Of a stretch of DNA of 64,000 nucleotides, positions 75 through 62,138 are shown piece by piece (the stretch's first letter is position 1; every line of letters begins with the position of its first letter). The position numbers were made by a program, and so were the translations under genes. The stretch lies in the NCBI RefSeq assembly GCF_019649055.1, contig NW_026570269.1:186001-250000 (forward strand), read 5' to 3'. The DNA comes from Paramacrobiotus metropolitanus (Eukaryota > Tardigrada > Eutardigrada > Parachela > Macrobiotidae). The notes under the pieces were generated by a model that saw nothing but the letters and a program-made list of their open reading frames with translations, ran no database searches and was not told where the DNA came from.

Positions 75-1224
75 GTGCGAAAAAGCTGAAGGCTGAAACG
101 CCGGACACTGAGCAGGAGCCGGAGCAACACTCGGTCTTGAGCAATCTTATTTTTCCTTTGCTGCCGGATTTTTTTCGTGGACTTTTTGCATATCACGATA
201 TAACACCCAACCTTGTACAGTTGGCGCGTGATTCCAGTCAAATGGTCTTTATGCTGCCGGAAATTCTTGTGGAAATCGTGTGCTATCTCGACGTAACTAA
301 CCAACAGCGATCCCGTCGAGTTTGCACAACCTGGAATCGTCTGTTGATTTCCAGTTCTGTAGTGATCAAAGTTGAAGTCGACTTGAAAGTGTATACGGCT
401 CCTGATTCGTATGACCGTGTATATCAGTATGAGAAGTTACCCTTGACTCTTCTTAAAATGGTCAACCAAAGGACCAGAGCGCTGATAATCACCGGACGGC
501 TTTATGATAAATGGACGTATACGCCGTTTCGCGCGATCGTCGCCATGCTAAGAGCCATGAATGTGCGCGTTCCCATGATCGTCATTAACAAGCGCACAAT
601 TTGGGCGAATGATCTTCTTGACTATTCCGATCCGCTGCGCGTAAGTTTCCGTTCAGGATGGCGAGACGTGTGTGGGAAGTTGGCGCTGATCGACGCTGAA
701 GTACGCTCACTGATGGAATCGCAGGATCTTCTCAGCAAGGATTGCTATGGTTCGAGCGATCGCGTTCGCGAGAACTGTTTTGGAGTACAGCTGAAACCAG
801 CAAACCTCGTAATCCGTACGATGGACACGGACTCCTTTTTGAATGAGTTAGATAGTTTGTGCCCGGAAATGAGTTCCCAAGATTTGCGTTCACTTCGTCT
901 GCAGTGGAAAACAAGATCGAAAAGGGCGAGGAAAATTCTGCTGCAAGTAAGTGTACAATCCATTTGTAGACTTTGAATACTGCTGAGCAGCAAGACGTCA
1001 TTTGAGTGACGTTTAGCTACGTTAAATATTCAAGACTTACGCCAATCAAATCCAGTCGGCCAGTTTTATAACTATTTTTACTGTCAATGCAGGTATTGCA
1101 GAAGTGGCAGCTGGACGAGCCATTGTTAGCAGAACAGCACAAAGCGAACTTCAGATATCTCAAAGTGACCTCTCTGCGGAATATCACCTTGTATGCGCTG
1201 CAATATCGTCTCCGTCTCAGTTGA
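75..1224 (+). CDS. F-box protein, 3' part (paralog of the FMRP-like/F-box fusion gene)
   Basis: C-terminal part of a gene that begins left of the window. Exons are 75-946 and 1093-1224 (TGA). The first follows a TTAG acceptor in the same phase as the matching acceptor of the paralog at 42.5 kb, and the 947 intron is also in the same place. An F-box (LPEILVEIVCYLD ... VCTTWNRLL) is followed by about 230 residues shared with the paralog, with blocks such as MIVINKRTIWA, YSDPLRV, FGVQLKPAN and KWQLDEPLLA, ending ITLYALQYRLR. F-box proteins usually bind SKP1 and present substrates to a cullin ligase; the conserved tail would be the substrate-side region. Whether this copy has the FMRP-like N-terminus cannot be seen. 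Bases 1-74 look like intron. Sure of the F-box and the paralogy, less of the first exon's exact start. Confidence 0.8.
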
Positions 1225-10003: not shown

Positions 10004-12615
10004 CTATATTAAATCTTTATAAACAGCTCTCAACGTTTCCTTAAATTGCAAAATTAACCGTTTAACCGCTTTGGATGCATCCGGCAAACAGAAGGGAGAT
10101 TTGTTGGCCGTTAACGTGTAATAGCTGAAGACCGAATTTGGTTGCGCCCGGTTTGTCTCTACATTGAATCCCAAAGTGGCACAGCTGCTATTCGCGCAGG
10201 AGCTGCATTCGCCTTTTCGAAACTGCAATTAAAACACATGCATCAACCTGCACAGTCCACAGACCATGCACTGCCGGTGTACTGATTAATGCTCATCTTA
10301 CTTTTTCATAGTTTTCACACCGATGAGAGGTCATGGAACATTTCTTTGCATTAATGCTTTCTGTACAACAAAGTCACAATTTTACAAATCTTACACTGAA
10401 TTTGTGCAGGTCCGTTCCGCAGTTCAGTTTCATGTACCGTACGTCAAATGCCAATAGTTCTATGCCCGACGATTCAAACAGTGACAACACAATCAACACA
10501 AAATTTACCTGAGTAGAGGGCGATAGCTCGAGCGTGATTACACGCAAACAACTCAAACGTTGTCGCTTCCGTCACTCCAATCAAATCTGTAAAATACGCC
10601 TTTTTACTGGTGCTGTGTTGTAAGAAAAAATAACAAAAAGTGATTGCCTGATTGGATTTAGAATGCCGTTTTACACTTTTCGATTAGAAGCTGGTAGTTA
10701 AGTACTCACTGAAAGTGCTTGTGTTCATTGTCGCCGGATGAATGGTTCTGAAAATCAGATTGAAGGAAATGAGAACTTGAATTACTTTTGCATGCGTTAT
10801 CTGATTCATACCCTTTATCGCAGCCAGGTTGACGCAAGCCACCATTAGGAAAAAAATCTGCCAAACAATTTTTGAAATTAATTAGCTTAATTAACCTCGG
10901 AAATGTGGTTATCCAATAACTACGTACTTAAGTGCCCCATCCCTTGGGGAGATCCGAAACTAGCTTGAAAGAGGGATTCACCATCCGTTGCAATCTGCGT
11001 GATATAAAATATTTCACCATAAACTTTTCTCCCACTCACTGTGTAATTCGCGCTGCATGCGAACAGCAGCGAACAGTTTGCTGCTGTTTTGCTCACTAGA
11101 TCTAGAACTGACTGTACGAACCGTATCGATGAATTTTGCATCAGTGGGATCTAGCCGCACAACTGGGTCCGTATTGGTGAAATATGGACCTAATACAAAA
11201 ACTAGTATATCAATTTTGATCCAGCAGAAATTTATTTAAATTATGTGGCTAAATAACTTAGCGGCTACTGGCTAGTAACCATTACCTGCGGGGTCAAGTC
11301 CAGTAATGCGCCCGAGAGCGAACCCTTTGCTGCGCAGAATTGCTCCCGCATACCCAGCACCATGGGTACGGAGACTACAAATGGGTCCGTGACTACAACT
11401 GGGTCCGTATTGGTGAAATATGGACCTAATACAAAAACTAGTATATCAATTTTGATCCAGCAGAAATTTATTTAAATTATGTGGCTAAATAACTTAGCGG
11501 CTACTGGCTAGTAACCATTACCTGCGGGGTCAAGTCCAGTAATGCGCCCGAGAGCGAACCCTTTGCTGCGCAGAATTGCTCCCGCATACCCAGCACCATG
11601 GCACGGAGACTACAAATCACGTTGCTTGATAAAGCACAATGAATGCTGCGATTTTTTATGCAAAGAAGCTGGACCCGAAAAATTTTAAAATACTAGCGTA
11701 ACTGCGTACCTGTGGCCGACCAGATGAACTTTGTCACCGTTTGATGGATCCACTTTGTATTGCGATTGTAGATGCAGAAGAAACTTGGCTACGTATGCAC
11801 CCACTAAGCGGATGTTGGCTGTAGCCTGCACGTATGGCGCCTGATTGCCAGCAGCTGCAATTTCAACAAATTAACTTTACCAAAGCACTTTAGAGGTGAC
11901 CTTCCAGCTATCACAGAGACAGCTTCATATACAGGAGCTTACACCAATCCATTCTTAAAACGTTGTAGTCGCCGTTTTTTAATAATTCCTCCACAATTTC
12001 CTGGAATGAAATTTTGACATTAATTTTAGTATCTTTACCGTGGGTTGTCGATTACTTGGCCTATGTTCAAAGTAAACCATTAATAGATACCTGCCACCAA
12101 GAAAACTGAAAATTGTCAGCAAAGCCGTGAATTAGAATGTAGGATTTTTTCGCAGGATCAAAGTAGGACTGCTTAATGGTTTTCGTGTCATCGGGATTGA
12201 GAATTTGTGTCTGCAAGCTGCCGGGATTTTTTCTTGTACTTAGGCGCATTTTCAAGAATTGAGTCAGGAGACAAACAGGAAGAACTGTTATTGGTCTGCA
12301 AAACGCTTATTATATAGCAGCAACAGTGATTACAATGCATTCATACCTTATTTATTTCTGGCTTTATTAATATTGTTCTGCCATTACTAACCTGTTGACA
12401 ATATCGAAGAATGGACCAGCGGCTTCAAAGCACCCGAGGTCACCACAGCACATGCTCATTTTGTTAGTTGAATCGGCGGCAGTGTTTACTTCTGGTGTCG
12501 CCGTCACTGTCAGTGGTCGGGACGTAAGCGTTACGGCAGCGCTTTCCACATTGCTAAGATTCATGAGGAGTATGGTCATAACGACAAATGTTACAGCGAC
12601 CTTTAAAACATGCAT
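10004..12615 (-). CDS. Pancreatic-lipase-family secreted lipase, copy 1
   Basis: Twelve exons on the minus strand: 12615-12392, 12295-12091, 12000-11943, 11854-11710, 11374-11286, 11189-11122, 10994-10928, 10857-10812, 10747-10710, 10586-10509, 10360-10302 and 10222-10004. Total 431 aa. A signal peptide (MHVLKVAVTFVVMTILLMN) is followed by CCGDLGCF, the N-terminal block of pancreatic lipases, then ILIHGF, MDWSAGN and the catalytic triad: Ser in VHLVGHS, Asp in GRITGLDPAG, and His in ELFACNHARAIALY. The lid lies between PGCDKG and FACNH. The family hydrolyses acylglycerols or phospholipids outside the cell. The C-terminal ~70 residues are Cys-rich, with no full PLAT domain seen. The exon encoding LDPAG occurs twice; only the copy at 11286-11374 keeps the frame. 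Tandem paralog of the next gene, with the same exon plan. Confidence 0.88.
11161..11616. repeat. Tandem duplication (~220 bp, period 236) inside lipase copy 1
   Basis: 11161-11381 recurs almost unchanged at 11397-11616. Each copy holds the 'SL..HGAGYAG..GLDPAG' exon and its flanking intron, plus the start of the next exon. The exon is 89 bp in the left copy, the same size as in lipase copy 2, but 88 bp in the right one (11522-11609), which breaks the frame. Only about three bases differ overall, so the duplication is very recent or an assembly artefact. Confidence 0.9.
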
Positions 12616-12685
12616 GTTGAAAAGATTAGAAAATTAAAGGGCAAACTCTTAACAGATGGCGAAACAATTGTGAGCGGGGACAAAG

Positions 12686-12718
12686 TGCAACTCTTAAACA
12701 AATCTGCGCTTTTATATA
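12686..12718 (-). promoter_or_regulatory. Core promoter of lipase copy 1
   Basis: On the minus strand TATATAAA (12718-12711) stands 32 bases before a CA step at 12686, about 70 bases upstream of the start codon. Confidence 0.55.
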
Positions 12719-12750
12719 AAATTAATAGAATAAACGGCAATGCTACACAC

Positions 12751-12788
12751 GTTCGTGGAGTACAACTGGCGTAGACGTTTCAAGTGGA
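12751..12788 (-). promoter_or_regulatory. Conserved upstream block, lipase copy 1
   Basis: A 38-bp block that matches 31 of 38 bases upstream of lipase copy 2 (16746-16783) without gaps. Both sit 30 to 70 bases upstream of the TATA box, while flanking DNA has diverged. The plus-strand core is AGACGTTT, then AAGTGGA. A shared enhancer-proximal element is the simplest reading. Confidence 0.5.
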
Positions 12789-14163
12789 TCGGAAAGTTGC
12801 GGTGACAAACTGCTGACCACAGGTAATTTAAGTAAGTATAACATGCTACGATATTTCTACACCGCTGACGGTCACGCTGATGGAAATTTCGAAGCCAAAG
12901 ATGTCGTGCGCAAGTACACGCGCAACGTAGATTTTAATAACTCGCGAGGGTGTATCACGTGTATGAAATTCGAAAAAGGGCGCATTAAGTGTCTCTTTTA
13001 TAGAAAAACGTTTTATGTATCGTAGCTTTGAAAATAAGGAGTTTTTACAGTTTCCCACCTCGAAATACGGTTATTGTTGTATGTACATGAGTGATATACT
13101 GTGAAGAATTTTTTTTAAAAATGCATGCCATGCAGGTTCACGGATTACCGATTTATTCCACAGTTTCTTATTCCATGCAGTCAAAACAGCGCAAGAATTA
13201 CGAATAAGGCTCTAGAGGATGGCCTTATCCAGAAAGATTTTTCCGCAAATATCTGTGCTCTGTAATACGTTGCAAAAGGTAGTGCATCTAGAATCCCAGG
13301 TCTAAAAAATCTTTAATCGTTACATTTTTTTAGCTTGACAATTATATGCCACCGTATATGTGCGTACTTTATAATGTTGAAAAATTAATGGCAATGATAA
13401 TTGTGCTAAATTGAAGTTTTATTGGAACGAACAGGTTAATTTTACTTAATTGCAGTAATCACTTCAAAGTTAATCCATCAATGGCAAATTTTATAACTTA
13501 AAGCCGTTTATAATGAAGTTAGAACAAAAGCGAAGGTGGCATACCTTTTCAAGTAATGCCTGTGTGATAATTCATGCATTTGGCTACGTAAGAATTTTTT
13601 GTGTCTGAGCAATCTTTCCGAAATAAGCAGATACTACTGCTTAAATATTGCGCAATGGTTTAGTTTCCTTACTTTTTTGTTATATTTTTCTCTTATATAA
13701 GTATTTTCCGGCACTTTACTACAGATACTCGCTAACACAGTTTTATAGTTTTGCTGCTTTTGGTTTTGTGCATGCATCTTTTAACCAGATCGCGCTTAAT
13801 TCCCTATGTCTGGGTACAAAGCTTGGAGAAAATCATGTTTTTTTGTGTAATTTCTTACAGTAGATATTTTGAGGGACGTTTGGGGATGATACCTAACATA
13901 AAATGTTGTACGGGAACGAACGAAAAGTACATAAAGTACGTGCTTTGCGTTTTCCGTAGTAACGATGCACAAAAATGAGAGATTCGCCTATAATCTCGTA
14001 TGATCGTCATTTACAGCCATTAATGGACAGATATGATACTCGCAATTCGTAATACTGCAGCCGTGAGAAAAGAGTACTTAACTAATAAGTAAACAGCGCA
14101 CTGAAGCAAAATGTTTTACACCAATTTCAGTAAATACTAGTCAGGTAAAATTTAAGGTTTCTG
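12789..14163. other. Spacer between the two lipase genes
   Basis: No gene is supported. Open frames at 12843-13025 and 13648-13978 have no domain, signal or splice partner. It holds the upstream region of copy 1 and the 3' UTR of copy 2. Confidence 0.45.
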
Positions 14164-16554
14164 TTAATTCTTTAACCTTTCATAGATCTGCCGCAATGTT
14201 TGTCGCTCAGTTTTTGCTGCATCGGATAAACAGAAAGGTGACTTCCTGGCAGTAACAGTGTAGTAATTCAGAATTGAGTTGGGCTGTGCCCGGTTTGTTT
14301 CCACGTTGAATCCCAGCACGGCGCAGTTGTCATCCGCACAGGAATTACATTCGCCTCTCCGAAACTGGAACAAAGAAATGTGAAGTTACAAACAGCCTTT
14401 CTCAGCTTTAGTTTCCAGTGAGACCTTTTCGTAATTGTCGCACCGGTGAGAGGTCATGGCACAGGTTTTGGAATTGATGCTTTCTGAAACGTACCAATTA
14501 CGGTCATTAGGTGTACAAGAATATACATAACGTAAAAAATTACTACAAATGTTAGCTGTTTAGAAAGCAGTTTTGCAAGGAAAATGCCAACATTTTGTAC
14601 CTGTGTATAGAGCAATGGCCCGAGAATGACTGCAGCAAATCAGTTCGAAAGCGGCTGCTTCAGCCAATCCAATTAGATCTATTAATTTTGACACACTTAA
14701 AAATTTAGAGTTTGACAATATTGAACAAATTTTGTTGATTTTTGTCATAATATGGAATCTGTAATTATGCTGATTGAGATATCACTTACTAAAAGTGCTG
14801 GTATCCATAGTTGTAACGTGGAACAATCTAAATCGAAGAATTTGTTTCGATTCAGATGAAAAAGTTGCCATTATTTTATTTTCCCATTTAGGGGCAACAT
14901 TTTTCAGTGGAAAATAAAGCTCTATCTGTCCTGCTTTAGCAGCTTGCACTCGTACCCTTTCTCGCAGCCAGGTTGCCGAAGTCCACCATTAGGCAAAAAA
15001 TCTGCAAGTCGAAACGCCTTCTGTAACTATATTACCTGTACAGTATTTCAGTTCAGAAAGTCCAGTTTTGTATACTGACTTATGTGACCCATAGGTTGGG
15101 GCGAGCCATAGCTGCCAGTTAGGATAGTCGATTCCCCATCCGTAATTATCTGCAGCACCATATTTTTGGTACTCTTGTACGATCGATTATATTCAAATTT
15201 TCTTAAAATGTTGGCATATTACCGTGTCGACAATCATAGCGTCAGTGGGATCCAACCGTACGGCCGCATCAGTATTGGTAAAATATGGACCTAAATTTAC
15301 ATATTAAAAAAGGCTGGAGCTTTTGACATGGGAAAGGTAGTCGGAGTACCACAGAGCAGAAATACTACGTATTATACAGTACGTACCTGCCGGATCAAGT
15401 CCCGTGATGCGACCAAGAGGAAATCCCTTCCTTCGCATAATACTTCCTGCATATCCGGCGCCATGTGCACCGAGACTATATAAACAAATAACAATCAATT
15501 CAAAGGTACGAGTAATTAATGACTTGTGTACATCGTGCACAAGCAGAAAGAAATTATCATGATCTAATTAGCCCCTACTGCCACCGAAATACTGTAGCTA
15601 GAAGTACACAAGCGCCTTGTTCTGTCTGCTGGGGGACCTTGCATGGATGCGCAATATAAACTGTGATTACCTGTGTCCCACTAAGTGGACTCCGTTTGAA
15701 GGATCGACTCGGTACTGTGATTGTAGATGTATGAGAAATTTGGCCACGTACGCTCCCACTAAGCGGATGTTGGCGGTGGCTTGAGCATAAAGAACTTGGT
15801 TGCCGGCAGCTGCACGAAAACCGTTTATTCCAATTCAGTGTTACCATTCAAATTGGGCTTTGCCGCAAATAAAGAGTTGAGCCATTTCAACCACTTACAC
15901 CAATCCATCCTCATAACGTTGTAATCTCCGTTTTCCAGCAGCTCCTCTACGATTTTCTGGAACCATGTTAAAGGTCACAGGATGCTTATGCGTGAAAACA
16001 CTTTCAAGGTTACCTGCCACCAGGCATAGTGAAAACTATCGCTAAATCCGTGAATCAGAATGAAAGTCTTCTTAGCAGGGTCAAAAAAGGATTGCTGAAT
16101 GGTCTTTGTATCGTCAGGATTCAGAATTTGTGTTTGCTGACTATCGGGATTCTTTCGTGTGCTCAGTCGCATTTTCAAAAGCGGGGTTAGGGAGCAGAGC
16201 GGGAGAGAGCTTACTGGTCTGCCCAGATAAGCAGTTCATTATAATATAGCTAGTATCGTACGGAAATACAGACCGAATTTTGAAAATTTCTTAATGTTTT
16301 CTTATTCTCGCATTCGTTCCTGATCAACGAAGCTAATCCATAGCGTACCGGTTGACTGCATCGAAAAAAGGGCTGGCTGTGTCAAAGCACCCAAGGTCAC
16401 CGCAGCAAGCGCTCGCTTTGGTGGTTGCGTTAAAGAGGATGCTATCGGCCAACAACATTGCCGAAATAGATTGATCAGCTGCGCCTCCCGCATTATGCAA
16501 AGTTCCTAGCTGGGCAAGGACAATAAAATTTAAAACGAACTTTAAAGCGTACAT
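14164..16554 (-). CDS. Pancreatic-lipase-family secreted lipase, copy 2
   Basis: Twelve exons: 16554-16349, 16218-16014, 15956-15899, 15809-15671, 15475-15387, 15290-15223, 15149-15080, 15001-14956, 14827-14790, 14678-14601, 14483-14425 and 14364-14164, giving 418 aa. Intron positions and phases match copy 1, and most exons have identical lengths (205, 58, 89, 68, 46, 38, 78, 59 bp). The signal peptide begins MYALKFVLNF; an in-frame ATG four codons earlier (16566) is possible. Catalytic Ser is in HLVGHSLGAHGAGYAG, Asp in GRITGLDPAG, His in CCSHSRAIALY. All coding exons are intact. Substrate cannot be read off; the family acts on neutral lipids or phospholipids in secretions. The two copies clearly arose by tandem duplication and are well diverged. 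Confidence 0.9.
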
Positions 16555-16703
16555 GCTTGGTAGCACGTAAAAAATTTAAGAGCAAACTAAAGTACAATAA
16601 ACTAACCAATACCAGGAAAAATTCCTTTATTTACTGGACCGATCATAGAAAAAGCGAATCAGTCTTACCTTAGATAATGTGTATGTCAAAACTCAAAAGT
16701 ACG

Positions 16704-17269: not shown

Positions 17270-18891
17270 TTAGTGTTTCAACAGAAGCCACAATCCCAGC
17301 ACAGATCCAGTAATGACCAACGCCGAAGCAAAATCGCGTGCGGCCGCATTTCCCTGTATGGCACGGGCGGCGACCGGCGCCTTATTCTCCTCTGTCCCCT
17401 TCGGTGCCTCCTGCAGCTTGATCAGATGCGTTAGATCATCCACATCCACATACTGTATTCCAGATTGCCAGTAGCAGTCACCACTCTGACACAGATACAA
17501 GCGCCCATTGTCCGCTAACCGCAACTCCGAATTGGGTCGCCCGGTTTCACCGTACTTGAACTGTGGCTCCTTAAACCACATCTGGATACTGCCCCATCCG
17601 CCCATGTCGCCATAGTAGATGAATTCCCCGCGCGACGTCACCGTCACGTTATCGGGCGTGGCCGAGTGGGTGTAGGAGCTGAATGTCGGCGTGGAATCGC
17701 AGTCGCGGTACACCACCATGTTCCCGTCGTCTTGGAGAATCAGATAAAAGTTCTTATTTGGAGAGTAATACTTTTTCCCTGGAGTAAGAACTTGGCCCCT
17801 TTGCAGTACCTCTGCATAATAAAAAAACTTTTATAGCATCCTGTAAGTGGCACTAAAAACTGGAATGGTAAAAATGCTAATGGAATAATAAAAATGCACA
17901 CAGTCTGTGTGTGCGTCATACGTTTGGTGACTTAAGTCTGCATACAGTTTTTATTTTGGCAGTTCGGAAATTAGCAAGCCAATTAGAAGCCAAAGCTAAG
18001 TAATAAAATAACCCTGATGACCATATTCAACCGAGTTTAACATCAGCCGGTGGTGACGAAAAAATAACCTCCCAAATAATAATTGTTAGACCTACAAACT
18101 GAGTGATACGATCTGACCGAAAACGAGCGCAAAGTTCAGTCGAGATTTATAACGTATAGATTTTAGAATTTTTAATTGGCTGGCTATCCCAGTTACCTGC
18201 AGACCTATTGGAAAGTGAAGCATTATTCAGGCACGCATATTCCCTTAATCCAGTCGACTCCCAGTAGACTTCGCCATCGATACTCAACTGCAGATATCCG
18301 TCATCGGTCAGCGAGAGAACGGGCTGGTACAAACCGGTCCGGGTCAGCGGCGAATTAGACCGCCACAGCGTGGCGTTGTTGCGTTCGTCCATCGTGCCCC
18401 ACAAATACAGATTTCCCCGTTGCGTCAGCTCCAGACGGCTTACCGAATGCCCATCGGCCATCGTGCTCCACACCACCGTGGAGGACAGCTTTTTCGAATT
18501 AACAGGCAGTCGCATAACCATCAAGGCATAGCTCGACACCATAACTTTGTATTTTCCGGAGGGACTGTAAATGGGAGTACTGTACGGCCGTATCTCTCCG
18601 CCTGCTTCTAGTACCACTGAAATAATCAAACAAAAACTTGGGCTACTTTATAATATAGTATTACAATGTAGGTACAGTGCTAATAACATGGCATAATTAA
18701 ACTTGCTAGTTTTATTATGCCATGCTAATACTGTAACAGAACGAAAATACGTAATACGAACGAAACTGGGCGTACGTACACGTTGAATCTCCAGGGTCAC
18801 TCCAATACACTGCTTGTGCGTGATTTCCTATCCAGCACATGCACAAAGAAACAAACTGCAGTACTGAAATGTCCAAACTTTGCTGCATCAT
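17270..18891 (-). CDS. Secreted or GPI-anchored protein with two bulb-type lectin (B_lectin) domains
   Basis: Three exons, 18891-18780, 18616-18197 and 17811-17270, both introns phase 1, total 357 aa. A signal peptide (SVLQFVSLCMCWIGNHAQA) leads to domain 1, which starts GDSTLVLEAGGEI and runs to GEVYWESTGL. Domain 2 starts EVLQRGQVLTPGKKY and contains LILQDDGNMVVYRD, the Q-x-D-x-N-x-V-x-Y mannose-binding signature of monocot-bulb lectins. The matching site in domain 1 is degenerate. The C-terminus is hydrophobic (FASALVITGSVLGLWLLLKH) after small residues, as in GPI signals. Likely role: cell-surface glycan binding, possibly defence. B_lectin domains are patchy in animals, so origin by transfer or selective loss is open. 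An upstream in-frame ATG at 18939 is a possible earlier start. Confidence 0.8.
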
Positions 18892-42501: not shown

Positions 42502-44651
42502 ATGTTCAAAAAAGATGTTTGGCGCGCTGGTGCCGTTGACGTTTTGGTGGAAACAAACGGGATCCGCTCACTCCACCATGGATTTATCGCCGACATGGAT
42601 CCCGAACACCTCGTGATTGATTTCGGGTTCCCCGGTCACCGTTCCGATGTGATCCCTTTTAGCAAGTGCAGAGATCGTGGCTACACCGATAGCATTTTTG
42701 TTGGAAACAAAGTACGAGCGTTGTCTCAGCGATCGGCGGACCAGCCGTGGCGCTGGTATCCAGCAAAGCTGCTCGCCTACGAGAGGCAGGAGTTCGCGTT
42801 TGTTGAAATGGAAGTGGATGGGGTGCTGGTTCGAGATGTCCTGCCGACGGACCGAGTGGAGAATGCGGTTGAACTGGAAAACTTCCAGTCTGAAATGCGG
42901 ACTTACTACAAATATAGTGTTGAGTTGCCCAACGACCAAGAACTGATTTCTTTAACTGAACGTCCACGATTCGGAATCTGGTGGAACCGGGAAGCAGATA
43001 CTATTGCGGTGAAGCGTATCGCTGGAACATTGAGCTACCTTACTGTGAACGAGACAATGCTCTCAACAACGCAGTGCGTAAGTGAAAATGCGGTTACCCG
43101 TGGTGCACGGGACATGGCGGTATCCATAACTTGAATTGAAATGACGTCACCAGGGTTCATCAGTTGTTAGTTCCACTCCTGACACAGATTATCTCATTTG
43201 CTAGATTTTGTAATTTTGTCCCTTGTCATAAATCAAATAATTACGTGATTCCAAGGCAGTGTGAGCTTTGTGAACTTGGTAATAAAATGAAAGATGTCCT
43301 AATTGTATAATTTCAGACCAGCTTTCTTCATGCCGTGCGTGGCCTGTTAATCGGACCTGATGAATGGAAACCGGCCAAGCGACCCTTCCAGGCAGCATTT
43401 CCTCATGGTATTTGCATTATGGTGTTGCTTGCTTGTTTCGTTATGGAATGATGTCAATGCATTTTGGGGTAGGTAAGAAAAGGTCAAAGTCTGAAGTGTT
43501 AATGCCCATGGCTCTGCCACCTGCGAACATACAGGGATTCACTATTGCTGATGTGTTGCCGGAAGTTGTTCTTGAAATTTTGAGCGATATCGATATAACA
43601 AACCAGCAGAGGTGCCGTCGAGTCTGCCGAACCTGGAACCATTTGCTTACCAGTCCTGTGGTGATCAAAATTGACATTGACAATCTTCCGATGCGTTCTC
43701 CTGCCGTGTTCGGCAGTGGTTGTCAGCGCGAAAATGTGCATATACCCTTATCACTCTGTAAAACGGCCGGCCCAGCTACCAAAGTTTTAATCATCACCGG
43801 ACAATATTTTGGCAAATGGCAGTATGCACCTTTTCGTTCCGTAACCGCCATGTTGAAAGCTATGAACGTGTTCGTTCCGATGATTGTGATTAACCGGCGC
43901 ACAATTTGGGCTAGCGATCTGTTGGAGTATTCCGATCCGCTCCGGGTGTACTTGCGTCCCGAATGGCTTGATGTTTGTGGCAAGCTGGCTTTGATAAACG
44001 TGGATGTGCGGGCTTTGGTGGAATCGCAGGACCGCCTTCCGGTCGTACCGGGGTTTCCAGTTATTTTTAAATGCGACCGCCTTCTCGAGAATTCTTTTGG
44101 AGTGAAGCTGAAGCCAGCCAATATTGTTCTCGATGCGATGAACACGAAGTCTTTGCTGGATGCGTTGGATGGTCTGTGTCCGGAAATGAGCAATCAGGAT
44201 TTGCGATCAATGGAGACCGAATTGGCGAAAAGATTACCGCAATCAGATGAGCTTGTTCTGCAGGTGGGTTGATGTCTAGGGTAGACGAGCTTCTGAATAA
44301 GTGGCACTGCATAGTGCGCCGTACCTACTCGTACATTGTAGTAGTCCAGTGAGACCGATACTACACACAAAACAGGCTCTTGCTCTCAGCGTTCGTTGTA
44401 TGTTAGTGCACGAAATGTTATCGTTTTTTTGTCTCGATTTCTCCTTGATGCTACATGATCGAAACTTGCAGGTGTTGAGAAAGTGGCAGTTGGATGATCC
44501 CTTGTTGGCTCCAGAGCAAAATGGCTCATTTAAATGTCCAAAGTTAACCTCTTTAAGGAAAATCACCTTGTACGCACTGCAATACCGTCTCCGTCCCCGA
44601 CCGACAGGAGGCGTACAGGTCAATGGCATGAACTTTCAACTCCCATTTTGA
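42502..44651 (+). CDS. FMRP-like tandem Agenet/KH0 module fused to an F-box protein
   Basis: Four exons, 42502-43077, 43317-43407, 43473-44263 and 44472-44651 (phases 0, 1, 0), give 545 aa. Residues ~10-60 (AVDVLVETNG, ADMDPEHLVIDF, DVIPFSKCR) and ~65-125 (VGNKVRALSQRS, WRWYPAKLL, FAFVEM) follow the two Agenet/Tudor repeats of FMR1/FXR proteins. Residues ~130-215 (YKYSVELPNDQEL, RFGIWWNREADTIAV, FLHAVRGLLIG) follow their KH0 region. After a basic linker (GKKRSKSEV) comes an F-box (LPEVVLEILSDI..VCRTWNHLL) and the ~300-residue tail shared with the gene at the left edge. The 65-bp intron 43408-43472 carries the join and matches the paralog's acceptor phase. Read as two genes, the first would stop at 43451. 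Inferred role: an SCF-type adaptor whose reader module selects methylated or RNA-bound targets. No KH1, KH2 or RGG is present. Confidence 0.8.
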
Positions 44652-45480: not shown

Positions 45481-45689
45481 GGCTTCCTATTGTTTCGTCC
45501 ACCATTCATTTTGTCCACCATTCATTTTGTCCACCGTTCATTTTGTCCACCATTCATTTTGTCCACCGTACGTTTTGTATACACTGTAAGCGTACTGCAG
45601 TGCAAATCGAATTCCTTGACGTGATACGTCGCGTGAACGAGTTCGATTTATGCGGCCCACAGCGCACACTGAACTGCAACTGCAAACTT

Positions 45690-45854: not shown

Positions 45855-46362
45855 TACACTAGTGTCTTAAGTCAAACTGGCTTCTTACAACCAGTAAGGA
45901 AACATAAGAAAACAAAAAACCTAAGAATAAACAAAAAGACGTGCGAAGATATAAGAAAACGTAGGGAAACATAAGAAAAGGAGAACATTAGACTTAAGAA
46001 ACCTAAGAAACCACAAGCTGGAGAACATAAGAAACATAAGAAAACCATAAGAAAACATCATCAAGCTTAAAAATTCTTAGGCGAACAGATCAATACAGCC
46101 TAATCGTTCAATACAGTTTTGTGTGGTACAAGCAGATTGGCAGGGACAAGTCCTGAGCGCTTTCACGGTCGGGTTCTGCCAGCATCCGCCACTGGAGGCT
46201 CTCTAGCACCCGTGTAACATCTCACTTCGCCATACTCATCTGCTGGATCTGATTCGCCTTGTTCATCCGTCTCTCATATCATGGAGTTGAATCGGTTCCT
46301 GAATTCATCCCGCGGAGAAGACTTCGTCGGCCCTGTTGGCGGGAAGCTCGGTGTTTCTGAAC

Positions 46363-46957
46363 GTTGTGCTCGATGTGATCTGGGGCGAGTATTAACCCAA
46401 GGCGCTTCGGCGCATTTTCGCCATTCAACCAGTGACCTAGTTGGTGCAGCGTTCGGGGATTCTGCTGTTTTTGCTTTTGGGAACGGTGAGGTTGGAAACC
46501 GTGGATGTGCGCTCGGGAGCCGCGCTGACTCCGAGACCTGCCGTCGCTTGCATACGTCATTTTCGCATTCCGGATTCATGCGGCCTGAGGGTGGGGAGCC
46601 TGGGGTTTCTGGATGTTGTGCTCGATGTGATCTGGGGCGAGTATTAACCCAAAGCGCTTCGGCGCGTTTTCGCCGTTCAACCAGTGACCTAGTTGGTGCA
46701 GCGTTCGGGGGCTCTGTGTTTTCTGTTTTCGGGGACGCATGGATGTTCATTCTGGAAGCTGTCGTTTCGCTCACATTGGACCGTGGAGTGGATCTCCCCG
46801 AACCCTCTGGATGGGTGGATGGGACGTGGAGGTGTAAATTCGGAGTCTCTGTGTGTCATGCCCGATGGGATCTGGGGCGAGTATTACCCCAAAGCGCTTC
46901 GGCGCGTTTTCGCCATTCAACCAGTGATCTAGTTGGTGTGGCTTGTGGAGATTCTGA
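46363..46957. repeat. Three ~100-bp tandemly arranged repeats with long open frames
   Basis: Units begin near 46363, 46615 and 46853 (spacing 252 and 238) and share GATCTGGGGCGAGTATTA, GCGCTTCGGCGC and TTCAACCAGTGA..TAGTTGGTG. A 237-codon frame (46281-46994, +) and antisense frames run through them because the GC-rich repeats avoid stops. The protein is repetitive and unlike any family, so I do not call it a gene. Confidence 0.75.
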
Positions 46958-47204
46958 GTTTTATGCTGATATTGTTTTGTCTGACTGTCTTTAGTGTTCG
47001 GTAGATTTACGAATGTTACACGTTGTCTTTGTCATGCTATCATCGTACTTCACTGTACTTGTACTGTTGCTGAATTAAAGTCAGTATAGCAGTCAATTAA
47101 GCTGTAAGACACGTTGTAAGCGGATGGTGGACGAAATGAATGGTGGACAAAATGAATGGTGGACAAAATGAACGGTGGACAAAATGAATAGACACGGTTC
47201 ACAT

Positions 47205-53586: not shown

Positions 53587-56500
53587 ATGCTGAACATTAC
53601 GGTTTCCACCCGTGCAGTAAACTTGGCGCTGTATTTCTTGTTGCTGGCCATACTGGTTCACTGGAAATGCTATTTCACTGTTTTGTGCATTTGGCTTAAT
53701 CTCCTCTTTTGGAACTCATCATTCAACAAATTTGATGGCTTTTTACCGGAAAGAATTGCCATATTCAGACGACGAGAGTGCAGGTACTTTAAATTTTGCA
53801 TGATCTGAAATCAGAAAAAGATTATTTACGAGTATATACTGATGACACGTTGTAAGCATCCTATGAATTAAAATATGTAATAGTGCTCAACTTCTGCCGT
53901 ATGTATTGTACACTGTATGACAGTTACTGCTTTATGCCTTTACCAGCAGGTAATAACATGCATTTGCCTATTTCGGTTTTCGTTATCTTGTTTTTTCCGT
54001 CATTCGACTGCATGAGTATGGTCGGCTATGCAGCCGATTTTCTTCTGAAACGTGGAAACATGAAAACATGTTGTTTATAGAGCGTTCAAAGGTGTCGTGG
54101 CCGTGGCCATCCAGACCTTCTTACGGGCTAAACGTAATCAGTCGATATCCCGAGTTGTCGAAACTGCTGTTCAGAGATATGGAAAAAAAGCCATTTTTCG
54201 CTACGATGGCAAAGAGTGGACACTGGAGGAAATTGATCAGTACGCCAACCAAGTTGCACACTATTTCTCCACGGTGGAAAAACTGGAGAAAGGCGAATGT
54301 GTGGCGCTTTTGGCTACCGCATGGTAAAGGTCAAACTCCAACATAAATGCACGTGGTTCATGTTGGACGTTACGCAACGCTAGAAGAATCTATCATTTCG
54401 AAAAACTTGTTTTCAATATGATCAGGGATTTTTTATAATTTTATGGTGTTGGTATTTTTATAGTCCTCAGTATGTGGCAATTTGGTTGGGATTGAATAAA
54501 ATTGGCTGCATTACCGCGCTCATTAACTGCAACCTGAAAGACGAACCGCTGCGCCATGCCATCACCGTCGCCAAGTGCAAAGCAACCATTGTAGGTGTGG
54601 ATTTGTTCTCCACGTATTGGCGTTGTGAATCAACTTCCCGGTGTACGGACCATGGTTTTCTCCGAAGGAAAGATACTTCCAAAAACCTTGCCGGCTACGC
54701 AGTTTGAATTATTCCTGGTTCGATAAGGAGATTGAGAAGATGCTGAAGACCAAGCCGGTAGTGGACAATCCACCGGGATATTTCGATACAGTTTGCTATA
54801 TTTTTACTTCGGGAACTACCGGCTTACCGAAACCCTGTGTGATAACTTCGCATCGGATGTATGCGTATATTATATCGCACCATTATATTCTAGACGTCCG
54901 AAGCGACGATGTTCTGTATTGCACACTGCCGCTGTATCACAGGTCAGTATTTAACGAAATTCAAAGTGGCTTTGTAAAGTGTACACTGTACAATACAGTA
55001 TAGACCTGCAACTGTTTGCTGCACGCTACTAATATTGAAAAGAAACTTTTATTCACCTTAGTTGTCGAACCATTTTTTTAATCGATCGAAAACTTCATAA
55101 TTCCTTAATTACTTTTCGTGATAGTTCAACTGCTCTGTATTATTGCGAAATAGATAGACGAGCATGGTCTGGCTAGATGAAGGCGTGTGCGAGTGCCAAA
55201 AGGTCAAGGTTTATGATCTATATCGTGAGCGTTCACAAATTCGTTGTACCGCGCACCATGGTGAGAAAGAACAAAGTTCAGAAAAACTTACGTTGGTATG
55301 CTGAGACTTTGTCTTGTTTAGATGCCGAGCAGAGTGGAAATAAGTCATAATATTTGAGCTATAGTTTTAAATTTGATTATGTGGAAAGCCAGCTTGTTTT
55401 GTTAACACGCTGCTGTCATCTGGTTAATATAATTTATATCGCTGTATAATATACGAGTACAATGACGTAGAATGGTGTACGTTTGTTATTTATTTTGTGT
55501 TTTTTTTAGCGCTGGAGGAGTTGTTGCCGTAGGTCAGGGTTTGATATTTGGCACGACGGTTGTGATGCGAAAACAATTTTCGGCTTCAAAATTTTGGCCG
55601 GACGTGGTCAAGAATAAATGCACCGTGGGTTGTATTACTTTAACGGAGTTCGTAACGATATTATCGGTATTTCTAAAGGTTTAGTTTTGCAGGCATTCCA
55701 GTATATTGGTGAACTGTGCCGATATCTGCTAGCGCAACCATTTCATCCCGCCGAAAAGGAGCACTCGCTTCGCTTAGTTTACGGTGTCGGTCTGCGTCCG
55801 CAGATTTGGCGGGAATTTGCCGGGCGTTTCAGTATCCCGCGCATCATCGAATGCTACGGCTCCACGGAAGGCAATACCGGCTTCACCAACATTGATGGTA
55901 GGCCGGGCGCGGTGGGCTTCACATCGCGCATCGTGGAAGCGGTCAAGAAACAGTTCTTCATCAAAGTGGACGCCGTCACCGGGGAACCGATTCGGGACGC
56001 TGAAGGCTTGTGCATCCGGTGTAAAGCCAACGAACCCGGAGAACTAGTGGGTCAGATCACGAGCGGGAAGTTCAATTCATTTGACGGATATTTGCAAAAA
56101 GACGCGACACAGAAGAAATATATCGAAAACGTGAAAAAACCTGGGGATGTGTATTTTCGAAGCGGGGATATTATGGTGTACGATGACCTGGGCTATGTGT
56201 ATTTTATGGACAGAATCGGTGATACGTATCGATGGTAAGTTTTGGATTTGGATGGCTGGATGACAAAATTGCGTAATGTAATTCGTTGACAGTTTTCTCA
56301 ACAAAGCGTGCATTATTCTCTTGGAAAGCATACACTTTGTGTGTACCAAGTGCTCATACTAACACATTTATTGCAGGAAAGGTGAAAATGTGTCGACATC
56401 GGAAGTGGAAGGTGTAATAAGCCGGTTGTTGGATGATGTCAACGTGGCCGTTTTTGGCGTAGAAATCCCGGGTAAAACCCTTAATCTACTCGAATTTTGT

Positions 56501-56964
56501 GGTACTAATAAAATTGAGTATGTGTGTCGATGTGCCGATTTATTTTACCAGGTTGCGAAGGACGGGCGGGCATGGCCTGCATCGGGTGCAGTGACGCCAG
56601 AATTGATTTGCGTACGCTTAGTGAGCAAGTAACCAAACGCTTGCCGGCGTATGCCCGTCCATTGTTTTTGCGGTTCTTATGTGAATTAAGCACAACAGGT
56701 AATAACTTCAGTTTCTAAAAAATCAAATAAATCAGATTCGATTCTTTCTTTGTACTTTTGCCGTTTAGAATGATTGCAAATGTGTGATCATACGAATATG
56801 TTTTAGGTACGTTTAAAATCCAAAAAGCCGCTTTGAAAGACGACAGTTACAACGTGACTCGAACCGCTGATCCTGTTTACTTCTGGAGTAATAAATCTGC
56901 GAATTACGAGAAACTCCATTCCGAGCAATACGAAGAAATACTACGAGGGCGAATCCGATTCTGA
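53587..56964 (+). CDS. Fatty acid transport protein / very-long-chain acyl-CoA synthetase (SLC27), copy A
   Basis: Eight exons: 53587-53783, 54081-54323, 54464-54942, 55510-55624, 55693-56234, 56377-56471, 56552-56698 and 56807-56964; about 657 aa. A hydrophobic N-terminus ([13 protein letters not shown]) precedes [14 protein letters not shown], the ATP/AMP motif [31 protein letters not shown], the FATP signature [20 protein letters not shown]-x-GDTYRWKGENVS (exons 5-6), and the C-terminal ADPVYFW. It activates long-chain fatty acids to acyl-CoA at the plasma or ER membrane and drives their uptake. Exon 3 is two bases too long: the frame slips after STYW (near 54620) and again near 54707, between QFE and YSWFDKE. 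Two insertions return the length to that expected. Either consensus errors or a decaying copy; all other exons are clean. Tandem paralog of copy B. Confidence 0.88.
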
Positions 56965-57805
56965 TTAGAAATAGTTTTGACCACTATTGCGAGACAGTAC
57001 TGCTGTTTTTGTACATACCTATTTATAGCAACCTTGTCATTTCGCAAAAGGAAACATCTAATTCGCACTAGTTATTGTGTTGTTTCAAGTTGTTAACATT
57101 AGGAAAATTGCAAAATTGGTTCAAATGGGGACCAAATTTGTTGCATTGAGCTGTACGAAACTATGAAGATCGCTATTTCCATGAGCACCACCTCGCAGAA
57201 GTATGCCGTTGCTTACGCAGTTGACCTTTTCGGCATCTATTCGTTTTAAACCTCTCTTACGTTCGTTCTTCGTTTTACAAAATCTAGAATTTTTTTGTAT
57301 CCGTATACATATAATCCTAAATCTGCTTGCACGATGTTGATTTTGCATATGCTTGACACACGCGACAAACGCTTATCATCAGATCGGCTAGAGTAGCCGG
57401 CGTGCGCGATTACGATGCCGTGCATTGACACAACGTCGCCGTTTCCTTTGTTCAGCATGCGCTGTCCAGTCCAAAGTGTAGAATTTGTTGCACTCCTGAT
57501 AAGGCTATAAAAATGGGTTGATACGAGGTCGGATAGTGGCAAATACTTTATCACAAGACTGGAATAAAAACGATAATAGCTCCAGGCTACTTGGAACGTT
57601 AATACGATGCGTATTGTTGTGCTCGATGCATTCACATTGCCGCAGCACATGCATGCAGCCTGTGCAGCGCTTAAAGAATTTCTTGCAAGTCACTTGAACT
57701 TGAAAAATTGTATTATTGTTTCTAAAATTAACATTTGTATCAGTGATTGTTTTACGGGTGGTTGTGTTACCCATTTACTTTCATCTTTTATTTTATTCCG
57801 CTAAA
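56965..57805. other. Spacer between the FATP genes
   Basis: No gene is supported. A 134-codon minus-strand frame (57246-57650) has no domain, signal peptide or splice sites. The last 90 bases are open in the frame of copy B but precede its start. Confidence 0.45.
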
Positions 57806-60800
57806 ATGGAAACAAGTCAGTTGACAATATATGTAGCTGCTGCGGCGCTTATGCTGTATTTTCGGTTGTACATCGCCCTGACTTTTTTGCTGCTACCGGT
57901 ATTATATAACTTGGCAAAACAATATGCACCTGAGCGCATCCATCGGCTGTTCCGGCGCGAGTTACGGTAAATGCCTAATATTTAGTTCTGGCGGCCTTTC
58001 GTTTTGTCGAAAGATACGAGGTATATATTTTTAAATTAGGAATTATCTGTACTCATGAGTTTCTGCACTCTGTATGCGCAAAGCTAGAGGTTATTATTAA
58101 GTGTATAATTCTTTTCGTGCTGTTGTGCTACTGTACATGTTAGTTAGACTTCCTAGCCCGTGATATTAGATGCAAGGGTAAATACTGTGTCCAGCGCCAC
58201 TTTACAGCCAACCTATTCAGATTTACCATACGGAAATTTATCAGGTTACCTTTTTGTTTTGTTTAGGGCGTTAAAAGGCATTATTATTGTTGCTATTCAG
58301 ACGTTTATAGCGACAAAACGTAATCGACCGGTATCACACTATTTCCAAGATACAGTACGACGCCATGGAAAAAGGCTATGTTCCGTTATGAAGACAAAGA
58401 ATGGACGTTCGAGGAGATCGGACATTATGCCAACCAGGTTGCCCATTACTTTTCCACCGTGGAAAAACTCCAGAAAGGGATACTGTGGCCCTTTTAGCAA
58501 CTTCCTGGTACGACTAGAAATGCCTCGTAGTTTTGCGTGTTACTACCAATAACTCAAACGGTGCCTTATTATTACGCTACCACTATTTTGCATCTTCCTC
58601 AACATTATTCTCCTAAAACGGGCAATTTTATAAAACTTTTTGTTTGTAAGTAAACACAAAGTAACAGCTCCGATAATTATCGAGTAGTGCGATGACTATC
58701 TGTGCTCTACGTACTGTATATATTTTGTGTGCACATCCTAACGGCTCACGCACGAGAGCGAGCGTAATGCACCGATTACTTTGTACAGAGTAGTATACGT
58801 TCCGGGAACAAATTTTGTTGCACGTAAATATATTGACCGAATACAGTTTATTTTACCCTTTTCCAGGTTTTTTAGCCGAATAATTTTTATTTTTCAGCCC
58901 ACAATATGTGGCCATCTGGCTGGGCCTGAACAAAATTGGCTGCATCACGGCGCTCATAAATTGCAATGTAAAAGACGAAGCCCTGCGCCACGCCATTGCT
59001 GTGGCCAATTCCAAAATCGTCATCGCTGGGACAGACGTGATCACCAATTATCTGGAGATTATGAATAATCTTCCTGAAGTGCGCAATTCCTTCGTCTTCT
59101 CCGAAGGGAAAGAACTGCCGAGTTTCCTCAAGTTCGACTCGGCTAAAGTATTTTGGTTTGATGAGCTGATCAAGAAGATGCCGACGCATGACCCGGTAAT
59201 GACCAATGCGCCGGGATACTTTGATACGATTTGTTATATCTACACATCCGGAACCACTGGCCTGCCGAAACCCTGTGTGATCACTTCGCACCGGATGTAC
59301 GTGTACGCCATCGCACATCATTACATTCTGGAGTTCAGCAACAGCGATGTACTTTACTGCACGCTGCCGCTCTATCACAGGTAACCGATTCCTGCAGTAG
59401 CGTTTGAAGTAATTATTTATGGAAGCACTAGTTATAAAATTTTTGTGCCATAAATTTAAATGCACGAATTATGATATCCAATCGAATCCAACTGCGTTCT
59501 TTGTGAGGCAGAAAAATTACAGGGCGGGAATCATTTTATCTTCAGTATTTCAATTCGATAATTCCTATTAAGCTGTACAAGGCGAGCATTAACAATTCCG
59601 GAAAGGCCTGTTTAAACCGCCTGTGTATGTTACTGCAGTGCTGGCGGCGCCATCTGTGTTGGTCAAGCCATCGTGTTTGGAAATACCATTGCTCTGAGGA
59701 AATCGTTTTCAGCGTCAAAATTCTGGGATGATGTAATAAAATACAAATGCACGGTAAGATCACCAGTTTGGAAATTGTATGCAAAATTTATTGCAATCGA
59801 ATGATTTTATCCGCTTTTTTCCCATCATTACTTTTGAAATGATAATATTCCAACAACTTCATGCGAACATTGAGTTGGTTTTTACCGTACATATTGCTGA
59901 TCGGAGCTTAAGATCTTCGTTGAGTTAGGGCACTTAAAAATTCTAATGCTGATTCCGATTCTAAGTGAAAACAACCGCAGGAAATTAAAAATCTGCAAGG
60001 AATTGATTGCATCAAGTGTCGATACTTATAAAAATTAATAAGTTAATTTATCGCTTCGGCTTTCGCATATAAACTATACTAACGCAAATGAATTTTCAGA
60101 TATTCCATTATGTCGGCGAACTCTGTCGATATTTGTTAGCCCAGCCTGTCAGTCCCAAAGAGACCCAGCATTCGCTGCGCATTATCTACGGCGTCGGTCT
60201 GCGCCCCCAAATCTGGTCAGAATTCGTCAGCCGCTTCCGCATTCCCCGCGTCTGCGAGTGCTACGGTTCGACCGAAGGCAATGCCGGTTTCTCCAACATT
60301 GACGGCAAACCCGGCGCCATTGGCTTCACCTCAAAGGTCGTGGAATACACCAAACAGCAGTACTTTATTAGAGTGGACATGGTCACCGGCGAGCCGTTAC
60401 GTGGTCCGAATGGCTTGTGCGTTAAGTGCAAAGCCGGCGAACCGGGTGAACTAGTGGGCAAAATCAGCGAAGGGAAGTTCAGTAGTTTCGACGGGTATCT
60501 GCAAAAAGATGCTACAGAGAAGAAGTATCTGCGGGACGTACTGGAGAAGGGCGATTTGTTCTTCAGGACAGGGGATATTTTGTACTTCGATGAAGTGGGC
60601 TATGTGTATTTTGTTGACCGGACTGGAGACACCTTCCGATGGTGAGTGCCGATATGGTGCATTATAAGGTTACTGACTGCCTACGAGAGGACCACATATT
60701 ATTGGTGTGAACAGTTTCTCGTTTAAATAGTTTCAGTAATGAGTAAGTAATAATTTCCTGTATTTTTGTTCTGGCAGAATAGCAATGAAATATTTCAGTC

Positions 60801-62138
60801 ATGTGCTTACCTGTGAATGATTACCTGATTTGCATGGATAACTGTATAAAAATTGTAATTATCAAAAGCAAACTGCACTTTAAGTTCAACCTGCAGTTTT
60901 GCAGTATAAAACTAATAAGCAATACCTTACGTTACAGTTTTGATTCTTACTGACAAATCTAAATTTTCTAAACGTTATAAACTCGTTAATTTGCCACAAA
61001 TATACGAAGTAGTAGAAAATCAGGCAACATCCGAAAACTGGCCCTCCTTATTACAGGAAAGGTGAAAACGTGTCGACTACGGAAGTGGAGGGTATCATGA
61101 GCCGGCTGTGCGGCGACGTAGACGTTGCTGTTCTGGGCGTCCAAATTCCCGGTATGACCAAAAGTAGTACTGTAATTTTTATAGTAATTTGTAGTGATTG
61201 AAATAAATGTATCGTAATGTTTGTGCTATGTTGTTTATCACAGTAAAAATGTGTTTTTATTTATCGCTTTGTACAGTCGACAATCTGAATATACGTAGTA
61301 CACACAATAAAATTAACGGTACCGCTCTTGCCTTGCAACTTGTGAGTGCAATTCGAGTGTCTGTACGTTGTAGTCTGTACAACTATGGACTACTGTACAT
61401 CACTAGAGCAATAGTTTATCACGAGTACAACAAAAATTATACCCTAAACGTGAAACTTGTTTTGGAAATTACCGTTGGCAATCTGCGTGACGGATCACAC
61501 ATCTTGTAATACGAAGCTTATTATCATTCTTTCCTTACATTAATATGTATACGTATAATATTTTAAATGCTTATACTCTATGTTCCGCTTTTAAAAGTTC
61601 ATTGGTTAATAGAAGAGGATTGGTCAGCAAAGCGTAATGCATCTGCGCTAGTCCAGCAACAAAAATTGCATACAAGTAATTACTTGTATAATTTAATGCA
61701 GAACACTTTGCTATTTGTTTAAGGATGCGAAGGACGCGCCGGAATGGCATGCATTGGTACGTCCGCTGCGAATGTGGACTTCAACAAGCTTACCGCCGGC
61801 GTCAAAGAAAAACTGGCATCTTTTGCTCGTCCATTGTTTCTACGGTTCCAAAGCGAGCTGCAGATCACAGGTAACATATGAGCTCATGGAACGCAAATAC
61901 AGGCTACGAAACTATACTTAATACATTTAAAATTGCGCTGCTTTCATTATAAATGCTGCCACAGTGATGCTGCATTTCAGGAACTTTCAAAATTATGAAA
62001 GCCGCTCTAAAAGAAGATGGATTTAATGTGGAGAAAGTCACAGATCCACTTTATTTCTGGAATCCGACCAATGCTCAGTATGAACCGCTCAACAAAGAAT
62101 CCTATGACAAAATTATGAAAGGTCAAATTCGGTTTTAA
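57806..62138 (+). CDS. Fatty acid transport protein / very-long-chain acyl-CoA synthetase (SLC27), copy B
   Basis: Eight exons: 57806-57966, 58267-58507, 58898-59380, 59639-59753, 60100-60641, 61057-61151, 61724-61870 and 61981-62138; about 647 aa. Exons 4 to 8 have exactly the lengths of copy A (115, 542, 95, 147, 158 bp). The N-terminal membrane segment is [17 protein letters not shown]. Motifs: [55 protein letters not shown] and the end KGQIRF. Same reaction as copy A. Exon 2 is two bases short: once in an A run (58368-58372, after RRHGK) and once in a G run (58479-58481, LQKG); both are homopolymers, which points to consensus errors. The large exons 3 and 5 are fully open. Confidence 0.88.

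Follow-up and report, generated by a model that had tools for sequence, protein, structure and literature searches.

A tardigrade gene predicted to place a diverged FMRP-type tandem Agenet module ahead of an F-box

Docking on SKP1-CUL1 is established for the F-box family, in which target choice usually falls to repeats, LRR or WD40 for example; in the LRR F-box proteins, the F-box is followed by a long tail. The N-termini of FMRP, FXR1 and FXR2 (PDB 4qvz, 4qw2, 4ova, 3kuf and 3h8z) carry Agenet repeats and a linker in the same order and with the same spacing as the protein described here. Fxr1 has been reported to be ubiquitinated by SCF-Fbxo4 (PMC5688124), and SCF ligases therefore do target the FMRP/FXR family, by a mode of recognition different from that considered below. 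In FBXO4, too, an F-box adaptor is associated with a protein of the FMRP type, but according to the same report this protein is a separate substrate recognised via Fxr1 residues 173-192 (PMC5688124), whereas at the present locus the module is built in. A fusion of FMRP-type Agenet repeats with an F-box was not named among the titles and abstract openings listed from the literature searched, a scope outside which most subscription journals lay.

The window, i.e. the whole stretch of DNA analysed, comprises 64,000 nucleotides of the genome of Paramacrobiotus metropolitanus. The proposed gene is composed of the following parts.

42502-43077, + strand: exon 1, with the start codon, Agenet 1 (about residues 14-58 of the product), Agenet 2 (about residues 60-122), the linker and the beginning of the KH0-like region
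43078-43316, + strand: intron 1, 239 bp, donor GTAAGT, acceptor TTTCAG
43317-43407, + strand: exon 2, 91 nt, open in frame, proposed end of the KH0-like region, TSFLHAVRGLLI...
43408-43472, + strand: intron 2, 65 bp; the acceptor is GGGGTAG and its pyrimidine tract is weak
43473-44263, + strand: exon 3, with the F-box (product residues 252-284) and most of the conserved tail
44264-44471, + strand: intron 3, 208 bp, at the same position as an intron of the paralogue (between LQ and VL)
44472-44651, + strand: exon 4, with the end of the tail and the stop codon; a 45-residue tblastn segment is 67% identical in the paralogue

Joining the four exons in frame gives 545 amino acids and a stop codon, as the earlier note had proposed, provided that intron 3, which was absent from that note, is removed. 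The 65-bp intron placed there ahead of the F-box exon was borne out as a splice prediction, the phases on its two sides agreeing so that the frame is kept. An in-frame stop precedes the start codon at 42502 by five codons, and thus the protein would begin roughly at FMRP's own start. Exon 1 is open over 192 codons without introns, encodes the whole tandem Agenet module, and has its highest codon-usage score among the six frames in the frame used. In intron 1 the coding score was negative whichever of the six frames was read. For exon 2 the codon score was not decisive, as one reverse frame scored higher and 18.6% of 5195 random open 90-mers reached its score.

Sequence comparison supports well the assignment of exon 1 to a diverged FMRP-type tandem Agenet module, the relation to FMRP being clear but distant. 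When the N-terminal 223 amino acids were searched against PDB with phmmer, all five matches at E ≤ 10 were FMR1 (three constructs), FXR1 and FXR2, with a best E of 0.0092 (0.0078 for exon 1 alone), and the reversed protein generated no FMR1/FXR match and a single unrelated match at E 1.5. Residues 14-150 were collinear with chain positions 5-142 of the FMRP structure 4qw2_A. A BLOSUM45 local alignment to FMRP contained 34 identities in 168 aligned residues (about 20% identity), and the shared positions were spread throughout exon 1. Smith-Waterman alignment to FMRP residues 4-213 gave z values between 9.1 and 11.4 for the three matrices used, the score being reached by none of 3000 shuffles in each case. 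Agenet 2 alone gave strong z values of 5.5-6.5 against FMRP (0, 3 and 0 of 3000 shuffles reaching the score with the three matrices), and Agenet 1 alone gave moderate values of 2.5-3.7 (74, 84 and 16 of 3000). Against FXR2 alone, the best of 2000 shuffles equalled the real score (67; fitted P 2e-5), and against FXR1 alone it exceeded the real score (68 against 66; fitted P 4e-5). In hhalign, exon 1 matched a three-sequence FMR1/FXR1/FXR2 profile over 122 columns (P 6.2e-5, probability 64.8) and FMR1 alone with P 0.0011, probability 20 and a score of 28.5, the best of 60 shuffles scoring 21.3. Among the 841 ORFs of the window scanned with the human FMR1/FXR1/FXR2 profile, exon 1 ranked first (E 0.016; next 0.89).

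Pfam searches of the N-terminal half, whole and as four overlapping pieces, found no Agenet, Tudor or KH family; weak matches in this search were mostly discarded by the HMMER filters, and the best sub-threshold matches were SIS for the N-terminal half (E 0.063) and CCAP for the 545-aa product (E 0.071). The earlier note had held that the lack of a profile match would speak against an FMRP-type module: Pfam indeed gave no Agenet or KH match, but the FMR-family profile did match. AlphaFold2 modelling of exon 1 alone gave a mean pLDDT of 38. Foldseek with this model yielded 430 matches at E ≤ 10 (best E 0.095), and FMRP was absent among the best 50 of them; as the model is poor, this outcome was counted neither for nor against an FMRP fold.

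A KH0 continuation after the Agenet pair is only suggestive. The full-length alignment continues ungapped to the FMRP residues 'NE' within KH0, and MAFFT placed ..LHAVRGL of exon 2 on ..MHFRSL of FMRP. The KH0 stretch by itself gave shuffle z values of -0.2 to 2.4 against FMRP in nine settings, ranging from chance to 2.4 SD. Since KH0 of FMRP itself is described as having no GxxG (PMC9603430), this motif is no test for KH0 here. In contrast to FMRP and its relatives, the module at this locus is followed by an F-box, and neither a KH match nor an RGG box accompanies it: Pfam detected no KH family (KH1-KH2) in the 545-aa product at E ≤ 10, and the product contains no RGG, RG occurring twice.

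The F-box model PF00646 matched residues 252-284 of the 545-aa product with 26.1 bits (E 7.6e-6; curated cut-off 20.5) and the F-box half alone with 27.2 bits (E 3.3e-6), and its sister model PF12937 reached 23.1 bits, under its cut-off of 24.3. No further Pfam or PDB relative was found for the tail, and the F-box half searched against PDB generated only three chance-level matches to CRISPR proteins (E 1.2-1.4). When the F-box exon was modelled with the paralogue by AlphaFold2, strands alternated with helices at very low confidence (mean pLDDT 37). The F-box followed by a long tail is similar to the LRR F-box proteins, as is this alternation in the very low-confidence model, but unlike in those proteins no LRR family was detected in Pfam at E ≤ 10.

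A paralogue lies at the left edge of the window.

75-946, + strand: paralogous F-box exon, Pfam F-box E 1.9e-5, 24.8 bits; upstream exons cut off by the window
1093-1224, + strand: last exon of the paralogue, through the stop, by tblastn similarity to exon 4

The paralogue is 53% identical to exon 3 over 239 columns, and the two genes have in common the F-box, the tail and the intron between the last two coding exons. By a simple Nei-Gojobori calculation over 233 codons, dN was 0.33 and dS 1.37 (near saturation), with dN/dS of about 0.24, which indicates purifying selection on the F-box and tail. Upstream of the shared region, the best ungapped 8-residue match between the two (GAKKLKAE / GKKRSKSE) begins at the proposed intron-2 acceptor in the proposed phase, and the best 9- and 10-residue matches lie on the same diagonal (acceptor diagonal 74/43472) but begin one residue earlier. 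Within the window, the paralogue's frame has no Met upstream of GKKRSKSE; its coding sequence is therefore likely to continue in from an exon further upstream. Within 1-74, a possible paralogue donor is present at position 7, between ctacag and gtgctg, which would give a 68-bp intron if the paralogue's intron were as short as intron 2.

No second copy of the FMRP-like N-terminal half was found in the window. No relative was confirmed in a viral contig collection (three scans with 2, 66 and 90 pattern matches) or in prokaryotic genome contigs (43 pattern matches), collections that say little about animals. Of the earlier reading of two consecutive FMR1/FXR blocks and a third, followed by an F-box and a long conserved tail, the two Agenet repeats are upheld by shuffles and profiles and KH0 is weak when taken alone; the F-box passes the curated cut-off in the product, in the F-box half and in the paralogue, and the tail is common to both genes and under purifying selection there. 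The lineage-specific family suggested with it is seen in part: the F-box and tail recur in one paralogue, while the FMRP part is seen once, the N-terminal half of the paralogue lying off the window.

Judging from the splice signals, the FMRP-like half and the F-box half are probably parts of one fused protein, and one gene is a better reading than two. The donor and acceptor of intron 1 are consensus, exon 2 is open and its phase fits exon 3, and the similarity to the paralogue at the proposed intron-2 acceptor points in the same direction, weakly on nucleotides alone, where the junction match was equalled in 13 of 200 shuffles. Against the fusion, 18 donor/acceptor pairs preserve the frame, and the intron-2 acceptor is weak. 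The locus is unlikely to consist instead of two adjoining genes, one for a short FMRP N-terminal-like protein and a separate one for the F-box protein. Exon 1 is open for 18 codons beyond its donor, the FMRP-like ORF could end at 43132-43134 with intron 1 retained or at 43449-43451 with intron 2 retained, and in-frame ATGs (e.g. 43502) are located just ahead of the F-box; these features, the weak acceptor and the modest junction match suit two genes, but the consensus signals of intron 1, the matching exon phases, and the coding-like sequence common to the paralogue at the acceptor, in a paralogue frame with no upstream Met, argue for one. A decaying or non-functional chimera, in which a captured copy of the FMR1 N-terminus lies before an F-box gene and the fused part has no conserved role, would account for the high divergence from FMRP and for the N-terminal half being single-copy within the window. 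It is nevertheless very improbable, given that the 192-codon exon is open with the used frame the best of six for codon use, that the positions shared with FMRP are scattered through exon 1, and that comparison of the paralogues indicates purifying selection on the F-box and tail. The arrangement is regarded as real and unusual, and as a putative single protein.

If the halves are fused, the Agenet module could read methyl marks and select methylated substrates for ubiquitination, a role for which FMRP offers a precedent, its Agenets being reported to bind methyl-lysine (PMC4259889). In the hhalign alignment to FMR1, F32 in the Agenet-1 pocket is conserved (F41 here), as is E7 (E17). The Agenet-2 residues Y96, T102 and Y103 are replaced by M103, L109 and V110, respectively, so that one of the four residues linked in FMRP to the binding of methyl marks or nucleosomes (F32, Y96, T102, Y103) is kept; E66, the Agenet salt-bridge residue, is R72 here, and R138 is E147. 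In FMRP, nucleosome binding is reported to be disrupted by T102A, Y103L and R138Q (PMC4259889), and binding of FUS and LSM14A to be weakened by Y96L and F32L (PMC5430443). With the Agenet-2 residues replaced, methyl-lysine reading, which the earlier note had brought in from FMRP, is disfavoured, and a protein that selects substrates by methyl marks is improbable despite the conserved F32. In the same report, FMRP 1-200 with F32 or Y96 mutated had a similar affinity for FXR1 (PMC5430443). The Agenet-2 residues linked to methyl or nucleosome binding are thus gone, and the ability to bind itself and FXR1 may remain.

Besides these two F-box genes, Pfam matches in the window include an ammonium transporter, a sulfatase, a galactosyltransferase, an RRM, and STRIP-type DUF3402 and N1221; together with the AMP-binding matches described next, these suggest an animal genome. 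Rfam and tRNA scans of the window gave no matches. Tandem duplicated AMP-binding genes at 54456-61159, about 4.4-4.7 kb apart and 71-79% identical in four repeat pieces, matched Pfam with 25.6 and 28 bits, under the 29.9 cut-off; we take them to be fatty-acid transport protein-like. On the - strand, 10923-16575 apparently contains two tandem copies of a putative secreted lipase-like gene, presumably lipase-like by the motif FILIHGF, with an exact 207-nt duplication at 11159/11395, and 17273-18647 contains lectin-like exons of the bulb (mannose-binding) type, whose B_lectin matches (E 1.1e-6 and 0.017) are each under the curated cut-off. At 46218-46991, three 163-nt direct repeats, the second and third 85% and 71% identical to the first, are flanked by inverted repeats (45504-45575 and 47118-47189); this repeat stretch is open on both strands (258 aa on +, 193 aa on -) and had no Pfam match at E ≤ 0.1.

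Returning to the single-gene reading, there is about an even chance that the product is a substrate-recruiting SCF ubiquitin-ligase adaptor with the diverged FMRP tandem Agenet module, probably together with KH0, as an N-terminal bait. From the known biology of the two families, the F-box would serve to attach the protein to SKP1-CUL1, and the other, FMRP-like half would select whatever the FMRP N-terminus normally binds, and the recruited partner would be ubiquitinated. FMRP homodimers are reported to form via residues 1-134, and FMRP 1-160 to bind itself in pull-down (PMC5823917). With the Agenet-2 pocket lost, and given that the N-termini of FMRP associate with one another, an adaptor that uses the self-association or partner surface of FMRP as bait is favoured over a methyl-lysine reader: its ligand would most likely be an FMRP/FXR-type protein, bound via the predicted N-terminal self-association surface, or the protein partners of FMRP, and less likely methyl-lysine histones.

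The Agenet region is divided among several exons in human FMR1 and is a single exon here, and one idea is that the FMRP-like part originated as a retrocopy. A further, doubtful possibility is that this lineage captured the FMRP self-association module as bait for an F-box protein, which would act as a dominant, built-in degrader directed against the lineage's own fragile-X protein or against partners in FMRP granules. If so, the level or the complexes of FMRP would be under the control of a protein partly copied from the one it targets, in an animal with a dedicated ligase controlling FMRP-type complexes. Such a protein would be a natural counterpart of engineered targeted-degrader designs, with the partner-binding end of FMRP as the ligand module, and would mean that the FMRP N-terminal module works without the RNA-binding half.
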